From: Deltaproteobacteria bacterium
GTDB taxonomy: Bacteria; Desulfobacterota; BSN033; UBA1163
Assembly (NCBI GenBank): GCA_020059605.1
Contig: JAGVBT010000164.1
Location: forward strand, 1-64,000
Direction: 5' to 3'
Length of the DNA: 64,000 nt
Shown here: positions 2,017-10,555 of the stretch, piece after piece
Numbering within the stretch: the stretch's first letter is position 1
How the letters are laid out: every line of letters starts with the position of its first letter
Notes under the pieces: generated by a model
What the model saw: the letters and a program-made list of their open reading frames with translations, nothing else
Told to the model about the DNA's origin: nothing
Databases searched by the model: none
Translations under genes and position numbers: made by a program

Positions 2017-5000
2017 CTAATTTGTCGCAAGCAGGGCGTCGTGAAGGGCCTTTGTTTTGGGAGAGGGTTCAATCTCCAGGACTGTTTTAAGCCTCTTCTC
2101 GAAGCGCCTGTAAAAGGACAGGGCTTCGGCCTTCAATCCAAGATTTTGATAACAGTTCATGAGACCCCGGCATAACTCCTCGGCAAGATCATCCACATCG
2201 AGGCCTTTCTGGTAACATTCCCGTGCCTTTTCCCATTGGTTAGTTTGACACCAGTAGTCGCTGAGCGTCCTGACACCCCGGAGAAACTTACTCCTCGTCC
2301 GTTCGCTCATAGCCATGGTCCAGGGCTGTTCCATCTCCTGTCCCAGGAACGGACCTCTGTATAATTCTAATGCCTTCTCTGTAAGCACGGTAGCGCGCTC
2401 GCTAAACCCATCTCTCCATTGAAGATCTGCTTCCTCCAAATATCTCTCAAAGGCCCAGAGATCGACCCAGCAGATTCTTTCATTCAATGTCAGCCTTCCC
2501 TCAGACAACCGAATTGCATCTTCCCTCCCCAGCAACTGCCGGAGCCGGTGCAGGGTTGCTGTGACCGACATGTGAGCGGCATCGCCATCAGCCTCCGGCC
2601 ACAGGATGTCAGAAATCTCTTCCTCCCTGATTCCCCTGCCGCCAAGGGCAACCAGGACCTTAAGCATATCAAGAGGTCTCTGCTGAGCTTTTCTATGGGT
2701 AGGCAGGGGATTTCCATCTTTATGGATCACGAACCGTCCAAGCGTATAAATCTTCATAGGCCAGGGCCAGCGCTCCAGTTGAAGTAATCCTTTATCCGGG
2801 ATCAGATGTCGCTTTCGGATGATCTCCTGGACATACTCCACCTCAATCTCCGCCTCAAGAGCTTTAGTGCAGAGCCTTGCCGTGGCTGAGGGATCGTCGA
2901 AAAAAGTGTTCAAAAGCCTCTGATCTTTTCCCAGAGCAAAGGCCATTTTGAGATGATGTAAACCTGAAGCTTCTTCTCCTTGATCGAAGGCAAAGTAGGA
3001 TTGAGCCAGGAGAGAACCGAATTCGAGGATTTTGCTTTTAGTCTCCAGGGCGATAAGAGTCCCTTTTCTAAGCTGATCCAGGGCTTCTTCTTTCTTCCCA
3101 AGCCTGTGCATGGCAAGGGCACTCATCAAATGGGTTGTTGATAGGAGGAGAGGGGCCCCCACTTGATTGCCATACTTTAAAGCCAGATCCACATGTAAAG
3201 TGAGCTCAGCGAGATCTCCATAAGCCAGTGCATACCGGGCGCTCAAGGAGTGGTAGATGAGTCTATTTCGAATTTCAAAAATATTGTCGGATGTCAATGG
3301 ACGGTTCAAAGAGGAGGCCAGTCTATCTAGAGACTGCCAGGCCGTCTCAAAATCGTTTACATTGAGCGAACTCGATATGGCATGCGCCAGAAGCGGGTGA
3401 TCCATGTTATGGATGCCGGTCCTCCGGGACATATCCATGCCTTCAGATACAGCCTTCATACATTTTTCGTGTGATCCTGTAAATTGGTAGTATATAGAAT
3501 CAGCGACTTTTCCCATGATTTTTGGGAAAGGGGGGGCATCTCTGGATCCTGTCAATTGGGATAACAGGTCGAGGTTGTGGCCTGCCCTCTCGAACTTCCC
3601 CATGAAACATCCGTGGAGGACGAGGTGGAACAGAACCCACATTCTGATATTGATCAACTGAGGAGACTCGGTAAGCGAAAAAGCCTGATCCGTCCACTTA
3701 TGGAATTCAGGATGCTGGGGTTGCCTCAGTGTCAATGCCGAAACCATGCTCGATGCCACCCTTGCCCCAATCTCCTGAGAAGGAAACTCTTTGATATCGT
3801 GCAATAGGTCTTCCAGTGTATGAATCCAATGGTCAAGCAGGGAAAAATCGTTATGACTGAAATCGATCACATCGACAATGCCTGCCCATGACAGAAATAC
3901 TCCTGCTATGTCTCCTTCCTTGCGAAATCTCTCGAAGGCTTTTTCAAGACAACTGTGGCTAGACGAAGGGTCGAAGGGGAGCCGACATGAACCCAGCCAG
4001 AAAAGAAGCCATGCGGTGTTCTCAAGCAAATTCTTTGGAAGGCAAGTCAGCCATTTTTCAAGAGGTTGATACCTTCCCTGGGCCAACAGGGAAGGGGCAT
4101 GCTTCATGATAAGTCGAGTCAGTCCTTCCCAATTTTTCTGGTCCATATAAATTTGGGCCGCCTCTTCCATCTGGCCGGATTCCTCAAGGAGCAGGGCTGC
4201 CCTGTGATGTAAATCCAAAAGTGCCTCCCGAGAAAACGACTCTTTTGCCCGGGAGAGAAGAAAGTTCCTGAAAAGAGGATGATATTGATAGACAGGCACT
4301 ACGGAGTGATGTTGTTCTATAAAATAGTTGTTTCTGGTTAAGGATGTAAGAATGACTTCCCCATTTGTAATACCTGAAAGATTTTCCGCCATTTGAACGG
4401 TCATCCCGGGGAGAAAGGCGGTCTTCATGAGGAAGGTCTGGGTCTCCTCGCTCATTTTGGTGAAAATCTCACTTCCAAAATAATCAACGATCTCTTTCGA
4501 AGAAGACTTCTCAAGAAATTGAAGCTCAATCCCTCTTCTCACAGCATCCGAAACCAGGATAAGTCCAGCCACCCATCCATCCGTGATTTGATGAAGACGT
4601 TTAACCACCTCTTTGGAGAGAATCTTCGGCGCCCGTAAACGAACGATATCCCTGGATTCTTCCAACGTAAAACGGAGTTCGTTCCATTCCATAAATTCCA
4701 TCTGGTCATGGACATGCAGTCTGGCAAAGACTGCTGGAGATTCCCTCCGACTGATCAGGATGACATTGATCCCTCTTGGAATGATAGAGAGGCCATTTAG
4801 GATAACTTCATGAAATGGAGAGTCCAAAGCCAATCGGTGATAATTGTCAAAGACAATGAAGAAAGGGGTTTTTAAACGTCCGTAGAGGTTCTCAAAAAAT
4901 CTCAGCGTGAATGTGGGAATCCCCATTAAATATTCGGGTGTGAGCAGGGGAAGGGGCTTTCGGAAGCGGGGGGATGCCTTCTTTGCAGCAAGCCCTAAGT

Positions 5001-5241
5001 AGAAGAAGAAGGAGGCAATGTCCGAATCGCCTTCATCTACCTGATACCAGAGGCATGGGAGCTTTCGGCTATCGAGATAGCTTGCAACGAGGGTTGTTTT
5101 GCCCGAACCGGGCGGCCCGGACACCCAGAGGATGGGGTGATGGCGGGCCCGATCTAAAAGTTGGAAAAGCCTCCTTCGGGGAAGGATACCTTCTGCACTT
5201 GGCCGGGTAATCTTAGCAAAGTATATGGCTTCTCTTTTCAC
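2017..5241 (-). CDS. MalT-like ATPase / BTAD (bacterial transcriptional activator domain) regulator
   Basis: 1074 aa; GPPGSGKTTL Walker A, MalT-like central region, C-terminal winged helix plus BTAD helical repeats (ALELYRGPFL...LGLKAEALSFYRRFEKRLKTVLEIEPSPKTKAL). Confidence 0.8.
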   Translation of the reverse strand: MKREAIYFAKITRPSAEGILPRRRLFQLLDRARHHPILWVSGPPGSGKTTLVASYLDSRKLPCLWYQVDEGDSDIASFFFYLGLAAKKASPRFRKPLPLLTPEYLMGIPTFTLRFFENLYGRLKTPFFIVFDNYHRLALDSPFHEVILNGLSIIPRGINVILISRRESPAVFARLHVHDQMEFMEWNELRFTLEESRDIVRLRAPKILSKEVVKRLHQITDGWVAGLILVSDAVRRGIELQFLEKSSSKEIVDYFGSEIFTKMSEETQTFLMKTAFLPGMTVQMAENLSGITNGEVILTSLTRNNYFIEQHHSVVPVYQYHPLFRNFLLSRAKESFSREALLDLHHRAALLLEESGQMEEAAQIYMDQKNWEGLTRLIMKHAPSLLAQGRYQPLEKWLTCLPKNLLENTAWLLFWLGSCRLPFDPSSSHSCLEKAFERFRKEGDIAGVFLSWAGIVDVIDFSHNDFSLLDHWIHTLEDLLHDIKEFPSQEIGARVASSMVSALTLRQPQHPEFHKWTDQAFSLTESPQLINIRMWVLFHLVLHGCFMGKFERAGHNLDLLSQLTGSRDAPPFPKIMGKVADSIYYQFTGSHEKCMKAVSEGMDMSRRTGIHNMDHPLLAHAISSSLNVNDFETAWQSLDRLASSLNRPLTSDNIFEIRNRLIYHSLSARYALAYGDLAELTLHVDLALKYGNQVGAPLLLSTTHLMSALAMHRLGKKEEALDQLRKGTLIALETKSKILEFGSLLAQSYFAFDQGEEASGLHHLKMAFALGKDQRLLNTFFDDPSATARLCTKALEAEIEVEYVQEIIRKRHLIPDKGLLQLERWPWPMKIYTLGRFVIHKDGNPLPTHRKAQQRPLDMLKVLVALGGRGIREEEISDILWPEADGDAAHMSVTATLHRLRQLLGREDAIRLSEGRLTLNERICWVDLWAFERYLEEADLQWRDGFSERATVLTEKALELYRGPFLGQEMEQPWTMAMSERTRSKFLRGVRTLSDYWCQTNQWEKARECYQKGLDVDDLAEELCRGLMNCYQNLGLKAEALSFYRRFEKRLKTVLEIEPSPKTKALHDALLATN

Positions 5242-6004: not shown

Positions 6005-6033
6005 TTGACAACTAAACAAATGTATAGTATCCT
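6005..6033 (+). promoter_or_regulatory. putative lexA promoter with palindromic operator
   Basis: TTGACA at 6005-6010, TATCCT at 6028-6033 (17 bp spacer), near-perfect palindrome ACTAAACAAATGTATAGT at 6011-6028 filling the spacer. Confidence 0.5.
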
Positions 6034-6118
6034 GAAAACCAGTTCGGAGTGATGAGTTCGTCCCGATAGAATCGGGGCGGGGAGTTTGGAAAACAAATTA
6101 AAAACAAAGAGGTGATTC

Positions 6119-6742
6119 ATGGAACTAACAGCTCGGCAGAGAGAGATATTCAGCTTCATCCAGGCCTTTATCAAGGAGAGTGGGTATCCTCCTTCGGTGA
6201 GGGAGATCGGTGGACATTTTAGTATCTATCCCCGGGCGGCCTTCGACCACCTGAAGGCGCTGGAAAGAAAGGGTTATTTGAAGCGGCGAAGCTTAATGTC
6301 CAGAGGTCTTGAGATACTTGTCTTTGAGGAAGATAGGCTCCGAAAGGGAAGCAGGCCGTTGATCCGGGACATTCCTGTTTTAGGCAGGGTTGCAGCAGGG
6401 AAACCCACACTGGCCGTGGAGCATGTGGAGGAGACCCTCCCGCTTCCGACAGAATGGGTGAATGGCAGGGAGGTTTTCCTTCTGAAAGTGAAGGGCGACA
6501 GCATGTCTCCGTATATCCTTCCGGGCGATTATGTGATTGTTCGGTCCCAGCCTTCGGCAGAAAATGGGGATGTGGTGGTGACCCTGATGGGTGAGGAGGC
6601 GACGGTGAAGCGGTTTTTCAAAAAGAGGGGAAAGATCGAGCTGAAACCGGACAACGAGCGCTGGGAGACGATCCGGATTGAAGAAGGAGCAGGAGAGGTT
6701 CAGATTCTTGGAAAAGTAACCGGAGTGTTCAGGAAAGTTTGA
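6119..6742 (+). CDS. lexA: LexA-family SOS repressor / autopeptidase
   Basis: MELTARQREIFSFIQAFIKESGYPPSVREIG wHTH; VAAG cleavage site; GDSM catalytic Ser; ATVKRF catalytic Lys. Confidence 0.92.
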   Translation: MELTARQREIFSFIQAFIKESGYPPSVREIGGHFSIYPRAAFDHLKALERKGYLKRRSLMSRGLEILVFEEDRLRKGSRPLIRDIPVLGRVAAGKPTLAVEHVEETLPLPTEWVNGREVFLLKVKGDSMSPYILPGDYVIVRSQPSAENGDVVVTLMGEEATVKRFFKKRGKIELKPDNERWETIRIEEGAGEVQILGKVTGVFRKV

Positions 6743-6761
6743 TTACAATGCGGAGTGCGGA

Positions 6762-7496
6762 ATGCGGAATGCGGATTTTCCCTCTCCCTTCCGGGGAGAG
6801 GGTTTGGGTGAGGGGAGAGAGGATCCACTTGAAGAAATCCTGGCCCAGTTGACTCTGGACGGTGTTCCTTCTTCTCCGAAGAAGATACTTTTCCGGGGGG
6901 AAGGGACAGGAGGGATCGCCTCCTATGTGGCAGGGTGGATGGCAGGCAAGGGGATGGATGTCATCGTCCTGGATGGTGCGAATCGTTTCGATCCTTACGT
7001 GGTTTCATCTTATGCAAGAAAGGCATTGATTTCTCCGGAAAAGATTCTTAAGAGGATTCGGATCGCAAGGGCCTTTACCTGCTACCAGATGGCTACCCTG
7101 ATGGGTGAGAAATTGATTTCTTTTCTGGGGACAATTCATGAATTGCCCCTACAGAAAATCCAGGTGATCCTGCTGGGACCGCTTACGACCTTTCTGGATG
7201 AAGATGCGCCGGAGAGGGAGGTCCGGCCTCTCTTTGAGAGGTCTTTAAAAAGGATGGAGGAGATGGTTTTGAGAGGAGTTTCTTTCTTTCTGTTTCAGTC
7301 TCCTGTTGCTCCCGGTTCTAAAAGAGCATATCTCATGAAAGGGCTCTCCCAATTTTCGGACCTGGTCTGGAAAATCGATTTGGATGAACAAGAGGCGAGA
7401 GTTGTCCCGGAAAAGATCCCAAAAAACTTTTCCCGTCACCCTTCTGAACCATGCCCTGAACTTGTTTCACGGGTTGGTTCAGGGTCTATGACCTGA
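6762..7496 (+). CDS. RecA/RadA-superfamily-like protein with degenerate Walker A
   Basis: VIVLDGANRFDPYVVSSYARKALISPEKILKRIRIARAFTCYQM resembles the RadA/KaiC strand-helix after Walker A, but the P-loop position reads GEGTGGIAS without Lys; N-terminus (MRNADFPSPFRGEGLGEG) is repeat-derived, so the true start may be TTG at 6804. Confidence 0.55.
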   Translation: MRNADFPSPFRGEGLGEGREDPLEEILAQLTLDGVPSSPKKILFRGEGTGGIASYVAGWMAGKGMDVIVLDGANRFDPYVVSSYARKALISPEKILKRIRIARAFTCYQMATLMGEKLISFLGTIHELPLQKIQVILLGPLTTFLDEDAPEREVRPLFERSLKRMEEMVLRGVSFFLFQSPVAPGSKRAYLMKGLSQFSDLVWKIDLDEQEARVVPEKIPKNFSRHPSEPCPELVSRVGSGSMT

Positions 7497-7633
7497 GGGG
7501 TTCATCCCTTTTTTTGATATGCCAAACTGAATCTACCCTGAAGAGATGCCGAAACGAGTTCGGCATGACATATTCTTCAGAATTCGACATGACGCCATGC
7601 GCTATGCGCTATGCGCTTTGCGGGGTTTTGTCT

Positions 7634-7951
7634 ATGGGACGGACCGTTCTTCCTTTCAGTCAGGTTCTGGAACAGGAAGTCCAGGAATGGCGAAAATTTC
7701 GAAGGGGGCTGCGTAAAGAGGATCAGCAGTGTCTCGACCGGCTCTTCGAACAGGCGAGACTTCATGTGCAGGCAGGCGTCTATGCTTCGAGACCCTGGCC
7801 TTTTGAGACGATCCTGATCTCCATGCTCATCGAGCATGAGAAGGCGCTGTTGGCATTGAGGGAGAAGCTGAAAGCGCTGGAGGAGAAAGAAAATAGTTTC
7901 TCCCCCTCACCCCCACCCTCTCCCACCAGGGGAGAGGGGGAGAATTTTTGA
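7634..7951 (+). CDS. small helical protein of the LexA-PolB cassette, unknown function
   Basis: ORF from internal Met MGRTVLPFSQVLEQEVQEWRKFRRGLRKEDQQCLDRLFEQARLHVQAG; C-terminal tail SFSPSPPPSPTRGEGENF encoded by a palindromic repeat. Confidence 0.55.
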   Translation: MGRTVLPFSQVLEQEVQEWRKFRRGLRKEDQQCLDRLFEQARLHVQAGVYASRPWPFETILISMLIEHEKALLALREKLKALEEKENSFSPSPPPSPTRGEGENF

Positions 7952-7966
7952 TATTTAGATATACCA

Positions 7967-10303
7967 ATGGAACTTATGGGATGGCTTTTCGATCTTTATC
8001 CCCTCGATTCTTCGATGATCCTCTGGATCAAAGACATCAGGGGCTTCATGCACCGGCTCGAAGATCCTTTTCGGCCCGCGTTTTATGCACAGGGAAGAAA
8101 GAGCGACCTTCTCGCCTTATATCAGACCCTCCGGAACAATCAGCAGGCCGTAGCGCACCAATGGATGGAAAAGAAAGAGTTCTGGAGCGGTGAAGAAGTC
8201 GAGGTGATGGAGATCGAAATGGCCGATCCGGAACATTACGCACGGCTTCCACGGATTCTTTCTCGCTGGGAGGAAAGAATAACCTTCTATAACTGCGATA
8301 TCCCTTCACCCCAGGCCTATCTCTATGAAAGGAGACTCTTTCCAACAGGTCGATGTGTCGCTGAGATCGAGGGGACTCGAATCTTCGGAATTCAACCCGA
8401 CCCATCCGAGTCGATATGGATCGATGATGGAGACCTCCTCGACCTCCGGGTAATGACCCTCAACTATCACGGTTCAGGGTGGGGAAAGGCGCTCCTTTTG
8501 GAATGTGAGGGGTATCGGATAGAGATGGAGGATGTGGATATTGGAGAGATCAGAAGGTTTATCAAACAGTTCGATCCCGATGTGATTCTGAGCGATCACG
8601 GAGATGCTTCTCTTCTCCCCCTTCTCTTTTCATTAGAGAGAAGATGGAAGACCTCCATCCCCTGGGACAGGGAGCCCCATCCCATCGCAAGGCAGATCGA
8701 TCCCAGGGGCCATTCCTACTTCTCCTATGGCCGAACCTATTACAGGGCCCCTGCCCATCTCTTTTTCGGAAGATGGCACATCGACCGGCGAAACTCCTTT
8801 ATCTACGGAGAGTCGGACATGGAAGGGGTGATCGAGCTGTCACGACTGGCTAAAATTCCGGTTCAGCGGATGGCGCGGACCTCTCCCGGAACGGCCATCA
8901 CCTCGATGCAGCTCGACCGGGCCTTTCAGGAGGGTATTCTCATTCCCTGGAGAAAGGGGGAGCCGGAGCGGTTCAAAACGGCCTGGGATCTGCTCGTTGC
9001 GGACAAAGGCGGTCTTGTTTTTCAGCCGAAACTGGGAGTCTTCGAGGAGGTGGCGGAGATTGACTTTGCTTCGATGTATCCGACGATCATGGCCATTCAT
9101 AATATCTCTCCGGAGACGGTGCTCTGCAAGTGCTGCAAAAACCACCGGGTCCCGGAAGCAGGCTATACAATCTGCGAGAAACGGGAAGGACTCGTTCCAA
9201 AAACCCTGAGGCCAATTTTGAAGAGAAGGGCATGGCTGAAGGAAAAGGGAAAAGCACATGATTGCGGATTGCGGAATGCGGAGTGCGGAATCCCCCTCAC
9301 CCTCCCCTCTCCCCCGAGGGGAGAGGGCATAACTTTTACTCCTTCTCCCTCGGGGGGAGAGGGCAAGGTCGCTTCGACTCGCAACCGAGGTGAGGGGGAA
9401 AAGCGAGAAATCTACAACCGCAAGCAGACGGCGCTGAAGTGGATGCTCGTGACCTGCTTCGGATATTTGGGCTACCGGAATGCCCGCTTCGGAAGAATTG
9501 AGGCCCATGAGGCGGTGACTGCATTCGGAAGGGAAAAACTCCTTCAGGCCAAGGAGATCTGCGAGGAGGAGGGATTTGAACTTCTCCATGCGATTACCGA
9601 TTCTCTCTGGATCCGGAAGAAAGGATTGAACGAGGAAGCGGTTCTGAATCTCTGCCGGAAGATCGGTGAGACCACCGGGGTCACAATGAGTCTGGAAGGG
9701 ATTTACCGATGGGTGGCCTTTCTTCCTTCAAAGGGGAATCGAGAAAGCCCCGTAGCCAACCGTTATTTTGGCCTTTTCAAAAATGGGAAGATCAAGGCGA
9801 GAGGGTTGGCCTTCCGGCGAAGCGATACGCCTCCCCTGATCCAGGAGGCCCAGAGCCGGATGCTCGAGATCCTGAAGACAGCAAAAGATGTCAGTGATTA
9901 CCGATTCAAGATGCCTGAGATTTTAGATCTTCTCTTCGAATATAGCCTGATGTTGAAAGATGGCCGGACAAAGCAAGAGGACCTGACTGTCGCCAAGAGA
10001 ATCTCCCGGGAGCCCAATGACTACAAGGTGGATAACCTGACGGCTCTCGCCGCCCAGCAACTGGAGGATGTAGGAATTCCGATTCATCCCGGAGAGAAGG
10101 TGAAGTATGTGATCAAAGATGCCCTGTCAAAAGACAAGGAAAGGAGGGTAAAACCTTTTCCGCTGATCGGTCCTGACGACACCTACGATGTGAAGAAGTA
10201 TCTGGAAATGCTTATCAAAGCAACCGAAGAGGTACTGATTCATTTCGGTTACGACAAAAAACGCCTTGAGAAGGTGATTGGGTCCTCCCCGGGAAATCTT
10301 TGA
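7967..10303 (+). CDS. divergent family-B DNA polymerase
   Basis: 778 aa; motif A EIDFASMYPTIM, motif B-like KWMLVTCFGYLGYRNARFG, motif C-like HAITDSLWI; N-terminal PolB-like and exonuclease-like region. Confidence 0.85.
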   Translation: MELMGWLFDLYPLDSSMILWIKDIRGFMHRLEDPFRPAFYAQGRKSDLLALYQTLRNNQQAVAHQWMEKKEFWSGEEVEVMEIEMADPEHYARLPRILSRWEERITFYNCDIPSPQAYLYERRLFPTGRCVAEIEGTRIFGIQPDPSESIWIDDGDLLDLRVMTLNYHGSGWGKALLLECEGYRIEMEDVDIGEIRRFIKQFDPDVILSDHGDASLLPLLFSLERRWKTSIPWDREPHPIARQIDPRGHSYFSYGRTYYRAPAHLFFGRWHIDRRNSFIYGESDMEGVIELSRLAKIPVQRMARTSPGTAITSMQLDRAFQEGILIPWRKGEPERFKTAWDLLVADKGGLVFQPKLGVFEEVAEIDFASMYPTIMAIHNISPETVLCKCCKNHRVPEAGYTICEKREGLVPKTLRPILKRRAWLKEKGKAHDCGLRNAECGIPLTLPSPPRGEGITFTPSPSGGEGKVASTRNRGEGEKREIYNRKQTALKWMLVTCFGYLGYRNARFGRIEAHEAVTAFGREKLLQAKEICEEEGFELLHAITDSLWIRKKGLNEEAVLNLCRKIGETTGVTMSLEGIYRWVAFLPSKGNRESPVANRYFGLFKNGKIKARGLAFRRSDTPPLIQEAQSRMLEILKTAKDVSDYRFKMPEILDLLFEYSLMLKDGRTKQEDLTVAKRISREPNDYKVDNLTALAAQQLEDVGIPIHPGEKVKYVIKDALSKDKERRVKPFPLIGPDDTYDVKKYLEMLIKATEEVLIHFGYDKKRLEKVIGSSPGNL
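9257..9402. repeat. palindromic repeat inserted in frame inside the polymerase ORF
   Basis: GCGGAATGCGGAGTGCGGAATCCCCCTCACCCTCCCCTCTCCCCCGAGGGGAGAGGG...GAGGTGAGGGGG; flanking CCCCCTCACC (9292-9301) and GGTGAGGGGG (9389-9398). Confidence 0.8.
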
Positions 10304-10369: not shown

Positions 10370-10555
10370 ATGGACAAACAGAAAAAATTAGAAGAGTTAA
10401 AAGCAAAACTTGAGGAATTGAAGGGCAGGGATCCTTCCCACTGCTCCGGGACCGAGACGTTTGTGGGACATACCGGGCATTCGATGTCTCCGGAGCTTTT
10501 CCAGCAGATCGAAGCCCTGGAGGAGGAGATCAAGAAGTTAGAAAGGGGATCATGA
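10370..10555 (+). CDS. small coiled-coil-like hypothetical protein
   Basis: 61 aa ORF preceded by AAGGAGGG; heptad-like MDKQKKLEELKAKLEELKG...QIEALEEEIKKLE. Confidence 0.5.
   Translation: MDKQKKLEELKAKLEELKGRDPSHCSGTETFVGHTGHSMSPELFQQIEALEEEIKKLERGS

Follow-up and report, generated by a model that had tools for sequence, protein, structure and literature searches.

What kind of system places a family-B DNA polymerase behind a LexA repressor, a RecA-like protein that has lost its P-loop lysine and a small helical protein? The question is raised by a 64,000-nucleotide stretch of DNA (the window) from contig JAGVBT010000164.1 of assembly GCA_020059605.1, a Deltaproteobacteria bacterium. The original prediction, made from the sequence letters, had read four co-directional open reading frames (ORFs) behind one promoter as a possible damage-inducible mutagenesis module. 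All four ORFs were confirmed at the predicted coordinates, on the plus strand and downstream of a single promoter, and the locus is very probably a bacterial PolB2 mutasome operon under the control of its own LexA, consisting of lexA, an inactivated RadA (iRadA), PPB2 and PolB2. It belongs to a known though little-studied kind, and a PolB-based mutasome linked to LexA has been proposed before: Makarova 2014 (PMC4104785) described the four-gene set in Leptospirillum and proposed a role in the damage response, and Timinskas 2025 (PMC11791011) modelled the set and named it a mutasome. The promoter and genes are arranged as follows, with sizes in amino acids (aa) and base pairs (bp).

6005..6033, plus strand: sigma-70-like promoter, -35 TTGACA at 6005-6010, 17-bp spacer, -10 TATCCT at 6028-6033 (consensus scan)
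6011..6028, unstranded: putative LexA operator ACTAAACAAATGTATAGT, a palindrome occupying the promoter spacer (conservation, single exact genomic match)
6119..6742, plus strand: lexA, 207 aa, winged helix-turn-helix and S24 peptidase (TIGR00498, PF01726, PF00717)
6762..7496, plus strand: iRadA, 244 aa, RadA ATPase-core fold (profile, AlphaFold, Foldseek, alignment)
7634..7951, plus strand: PPB2, 105 aa, small helical subunit with N-terminal MGRT (alignment)
7967..10303, plus strand: PolB2, 778 aa, family-B polymerase (PF00136, motifs, tree, predicted structure)

The first gene encodes a full LexA, as had been predicted. It scores 206 bits against TIGR00498 (cut-off 111) and also matches PF01726 and PF00717, passing the curated cut-offs in both Pfam and NCBIfam, and the Ala-Gly cleavage site (VAAGKP), the serine (GDSM) and the lysine (EATVKRF) of the dyad can be read in its sequence. 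A search of the source genome (G000; 4.38 Mb, 93.7% complete) found this LexA and no other. Several relatives (loci L032, L034, L035, and L037) carry a second LexA paralogue, ~40-44% identical, with another palindrome, GGTCTACATATGTAGACC or near it; in L037, dinB follows the second LexA with a GGTCTACATATGTAGACC-type box. From its single sequence the 244-aa product of the second gene matched no family above cut-off, with Rad51 below threshold at E=0.16. A profile of 18 homologues, in turn, led to RadA chains in the PDB (E=1.5e-7), and the AlphaFold model (pLDDT 82) matched RadA/Rad51 ATPase cores in Foldseek (E=4e-10), so that profile and predicted fold bear out the suspected RecA-superfamily similarity. 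The protein consists of the RadA core with neither the N-terminal domain nor the ATPase residues. Gly stands in place of the Walker B Asp, and the Walker A Lys-Thr pair is substituted (GEGTGG against GSGKTQ), which identifies it as an inactivated RadA; its ARAFT residues are largely conserved across bacteria and haloarchaea. The 105-aa protein likewise matched no family above cut-off from its single sequence, and its profile found no relative in the PDB. Its MGRT N-terminus, unchanged in all 12 of the 12 homologues that were aligned, corresponds to the published hallmark of PPB2 (PMC11791011), which gives the small helical protein of the original prediction its identity. The MGRT gene recurs in haloarchaeal plasmids and in a Leptospira phage. 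In the Leptospira phage LkmZ_Bejolso9 (L098), PPB2 (3736-3999) is annotated too short, an MGRT start lying upstream and overlapping iRadA.

The polymerase scores 108 bits against PF00136 (cut-off 23) and is family B along its whole length. The sites that bear on its activity and its partner are these.

9002..9007, plus strand: D346-K347, PolB2-specific D(K/R) motif (alignment, motif scan)
9062..9082, plus strand: polymerase motif A DFASMYP with catalytic D366 (alignment, motif scan)
9593..9601, plus strand: polymerase motif C ITD, I543-T544-D545, first Asp of DxD substituted, second retained

Motif A, the lysine-bearing motif B and the second motif C Asp, D545, which is invariant, are intact, while ITD stands at aa 543-545 where DTD is expected. 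The exonuclease site has been lost, the LDIET motif being absent here and present in other PolB of the class. D346 is nearly invariant, and the D(K/R) loop motif contacts PPB2 in published models (PMC11791011). A link to the PolB2/Dpo2 group, offered earlier as an unverified suggestion about a divergent PolB, therefore holds on the DK motif, the IxD, the missing exonuclease, the MGRT partner, and the Walker-less RadA. Phylogeny agrees, grouping the protein with haloarchaeal polymerases encoded in an iRadA-PPB2-PolB2 trio and apart from a DTD-containing PolB3-like protein (support 93/94), although branches are long and outgroups few, so that membership rests more on the motifs and gene set than on the tree. 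Between motif A and the fingers, C387, C389, C390, and C403 (9125-9175) form a CxCC...C cluster. It is for the most part kept among bacterial homologues, the haloarchaeal one retains some of it, and it may be a metal site.

The genes travel together. The order lexA-iRadA-PPB2-PolB2, and with it the bacterial order iRadA-PPB2-PolB2, is kept at the locus and in every close relative with a spanning contig, bar one truncated cassette; conservation of gene order had been singled out beforehand as a check. Across the phylum, PPB2 was found in 31 of 245 good genomes, representing 22 of 198 genera, and lexA-headed cassettes also occur in f2, f9, f11, f21, f29, and f53, among the other families inspected, as well as on an Armatimonadota contig. 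The trio of iRadA, PPB2, and PolB2 is found in haloarchaeal plasmids and a Leptospira phage, with no lexA annotated alongside. One locus (L148, G260:C108) has lexA-iRadA-PPB2 divergent from PolB2 with the palindrome TATATGTATGCTAACATACATATA between them, an arrangement unlike the one bacterial layout given in PMC11791011. The truncated cassette is a natural deletion in G007 (L071, G007:C68, 3081-5277), in which lexA, the operator and a small downstream gene are intact, only 133 aa of iRadA remain, and PPB2 and PolB2 are lost; from this, the three effector genes would seem to act as a single functional unit. Between the window and its relatives, dN/dS is 0.08-0.19 for all four genes, showing that they are real genes and that the operon is maintained under purifying selection.

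Dispersed repeats lie at three sites in the cassette.

9258..9402, plus strand: in-frame dispersed-repeat insertion in the fingertip loop, ~aa 432-478 of PolB2
6749..6821, plus strand: repeats of the same families, at the lexA/iRadA junction and extending into the iRadA ORF
7895..7945, plus strand: repeat of the same family, at the 3' end of PPB2

The PolB ORF had thus been called correctly, but the ~45 in-frame amino acids within it that derive from dispersed repeats, of which ~40 further partial copies exist in the genome, had been missed. The 244-aa ORF was similarly borne out with an uncertain start, because its first ~22 codons are repeat-derived and missing in most relatives; the last ~15 codons of PPB2 are also repeat-derived. 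In the predicted PolB2 model, the insert lies between two long helices of the fingers with pLDDT <50 at aa 434-474. In relatives, 23-67 residues occupy this loop; their sequence varies and in several cases comes from other dispersed repeats, and all full-length relatives nonetheless stay in frame; distant PolB2 homologues have short linkers there. Within the window, two exact repeat words are confined to the cassette, and such words form 3 clusters in the 4.3-kb cassette vs 15 in 389 kb of other genomic sequence, an enrichment that is post hoc, the words having been picked because they were seen in the cassette. In the relative L022, further in-frame repeat-like inserts are seen in iRadA (1793-2590) and at a second PolB2 site after the CC motif. 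In-frame palindromic repeats are known in Rickettsia.

The cassette's regulation is addressed by the 18-bp palindrome ACTAAACAAATGTATAGT, which directly follows TTGACA. Among relatives of family f1, TTGACA, the 18-mer and TAT are conserved ahead of lexA, the palindrome having no more than one change in 14 of the 14 cassettes examined and the -35 box lying 80-447 bp upstream of the lexA start codon. Other families keep the position and change the sequence, to ACCATACAAATGTATGGT in f11, ACTCATCAAATGATGAGT in f21, and ACCAGACAAACGTCTGGT in Armatimonadota, with both arms altered together, so that the arms co-vary between families; palindromes are weaker in f9 and f53, and differently placed in f29. 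When both strands of the cassette loci were scanned, only 22 of 477 TTGAC sites preceded an 18-mer in which 7 or more of the 9 pairs were complementary, and with 21 of 28 cassette promoters reaching this level, nearly all palindromic TTGAC sites are cassette promoters. This is strong evidence that the promoter palindrome is the operator of a dimeric protein, most simply LexA itself, and lends support to the predicted control of the cassette by its own LexA.

The operator is also nearly unique. It has a single exact match in the source genome; seven further genomes of the genus have one apiece and G002 has two; no copy was found in G004, nor was a match to PolB2 or LexA. Judged by this pattern of matches, LexA looks private to the operon, and its control appears to reach hardly anything in the genome beyond it. 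A wider ACTAAACAAATGTATAGT regulon was considered and rejected at 0-1 mismatch, matches being no more numerous than those of a reversed control. The extra exact copy in G002 (L072, G002:C12:50000-57500, at 3344-3361) lies directly upstream of a ParB-like gene adjoined by phage-type genes, as if a mobile element had borrowed the host switch.

How such an operon might work is suggested by its archaeal counterpart. In Sulfolobus, damage induces Dpo2, which alone accounts for targeted mutagenesis (PMC7390963); the enzyme extends primers that end in a mismatch or opposite a lesion (PMC8764526). Published models describe a complex of PolB2, iRadA and three copies of PPB2, PolB2-iRadA-PPB2(3) (PMC11791011). 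Taken with the selection acting on the four genes, these data lead to the proposal of a LexA-repressed, damage-induced extender polymerase complex. A LexA dimer seated on the spacer palindrome would repress its own operon until DNA damage placed RecA on single-stranded DNA and LexA cleaved itself, and its loss would allow joint production of lexA, iRadA, PPB2, and PolB2. The polymerase, without proofreading and with an altered but probably usable active site, would bind the dead iRadA by an interface like that of RadA; in the complex, a trimer of PPB2 may extend an MGRT arm to the PolB2 active site. The complex could then extend primers beyond lesions at stalled forks, with mutations as the cost.

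Several points weigh against this proposal. The literature consulted yielded no experiment on a bacterial PolB2 and knows bacterial PolB2 mutasomes from computation only; a hairpin resembling a terminator, where iRadA ends (7495-7511), could split the transcript; and a simple scan of this lineage, which weak motifs may escape, gave no beta-clamp motif close to the C-terminus of either iRadA or PolB2. Such a motif is optional, occurring in a fraction of PolB2 mutasomes. The PolB2 of the Leptospira phage LkmZ_Bejolso9 ends in a clamp-like QLLLPF. The fingertip insert might impair the polymerase, although selection on the remainder argues otherwise. It could even be supposed that PolB2 is catalytically dead and the complex structural or regulatory, marking or remodelling stalled forks or recruiting another polymerase such as DinB. 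The missing first Asp of motif C, the absent exonuclease motifs and the repeat-derived fingertip are what such a reading would draw on, and the family was termed inactivated by Makarova 2014 and earlier work (PMC4104785); it is nevertheless unlikely, since D366, the motif B lysine and D545 are retained and Sulfolobus Dpo2, also IxD, is an active extender (PMC8764526). That the cassette is instead decaying, with repeats invading an unused operon and leaving a non-functional polymerase, would fit the repeat pieces at its three sites and the loss of PPB2, PolB2, and part of iRadA from G007, where lexA is retained. A dN/dS of 0.08-0.11 over 713-740 PolB2 codons, a frame kept in all full-length relatives and an essentially unchanged promoter and operator make this very unlikely.

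Doubt may also fall on the private switch. As the single LexA found in an assembly that is 93.7% complete, the cassette's repressor might be a global SOS regulator for which the cassette is one of many targets with degenerate operators. This is improbable given one exact palindrome genome-wide, the fewer matches at up to one mismatch than for the reversed control pattern (3 vs 8), one of the two non-cassette matches being intragenic, and a lone recA that carries no such box; in some relatives, moreover, a second LexA has a different box. The original prediction had drawn a parallel with lexA-imuA-imuB-dnaE2 cassettes, and a divergent version of these with a family-B polymerase in place of DnaE2 would share the same logic, LexA coming first and a RecA-superfamily protein, an accessory protein and a polymerase following, as in the P. 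putida lexA2-imuABC operon, which is also under its own LexA2 (PMC3901139). The parallel stands as functional analogy and fails as homology of the set, which was rejected: the operon has neither a Y-family ImuB-like gene nor a C-family polymerase, the one Y-family (IMS) match in the source genome is a DinB-like gene, its RecA-like protein matches RadA/Rad51, and the trio is intact in archaeal plasmids, so that common descent with imu cassettes deserves next to no credence.

Two neighbours lie outside the PolB2 operon. Downstream of it, a 61-aa protein (10370-10555), probably a coiled coil, is conserved in the genus; it was rejected as a fifth operon gene and is not counted in the cassette because it persists where the cassette was deleted. 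On the minus strand at 2017-5241, a 1074-aa ORF resembles, by sequence judgement, an ATPase-plus-BTAD transcriptional regulator.

A fuller picture can be put forward tentatively, and as a whole it falls somewhat short of an even chance. The PolB2 mutasome would here have a private, one-operon LexA switch that co-evolves with its palindrome family by family and is occasionally borrowed by phage-like elements, and its fingertip loop would be a tolerated hot spot of in-frame palindromic repeat capture, giving each species a differently decorated polymerase. The available parts of Makarova 2014 and Timinskas 2025 gave no mention of the operator, of its near-uniqueness and family-wise covariation, of repeats filling the fingertip or of the natural deletion. 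A conserved, near-unique operator offers a clean reporter for when bacterial PolB2 mutasomes are activated, and the co-varying operator arms of the different families provide a natural series for LexA specificity. Should LexA control this operon only, mutagenesis would be uncoupled from the remaining SOS response. With the fingertip inserts, one could ask how a polymerase tolerates captured repeat DNA.

Among known systems, the closest is that of Leptospirillum ferriphilum (LFML04_0990-0993), in which the same four genes encode, with the inactive RadA and MGRT protein, an IxD polymerase without exonuclease (PMC4104785, PMC11791011); the window differs in its identified operator and the in-frame repeats in the fingertip, and no beta-clamp motif was found in it by simple scan. 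The Sulfolobus islandicus system has a homologous polymerase (Dpo2/PolB2, likewise IxD and without exonuclease) with iRadA and PPB2 as partners, but it is archaeal, has no lexA and answers to other damage regulators, and it is only there that function has been shown experimentally. In Pseudomonas putida, lexA2-imuA-imuB-imuC resembles the window as a known mutagenesis operon headed and controlled by its own LexA with a RecA-superfamily accessory protein, and has Y-family ImuB and C-family DnaE2/ImuC where the window has PPB2 and PolB2. Escherichia coli Pol V (UmuD'2C-RecA) is likewise an SOS-controlled, multi-subunit lesion-bypass polymerase using a RecA-family subunit, but it is built from a Y-family polymerase, an active RecA and a UmuD' dimer.

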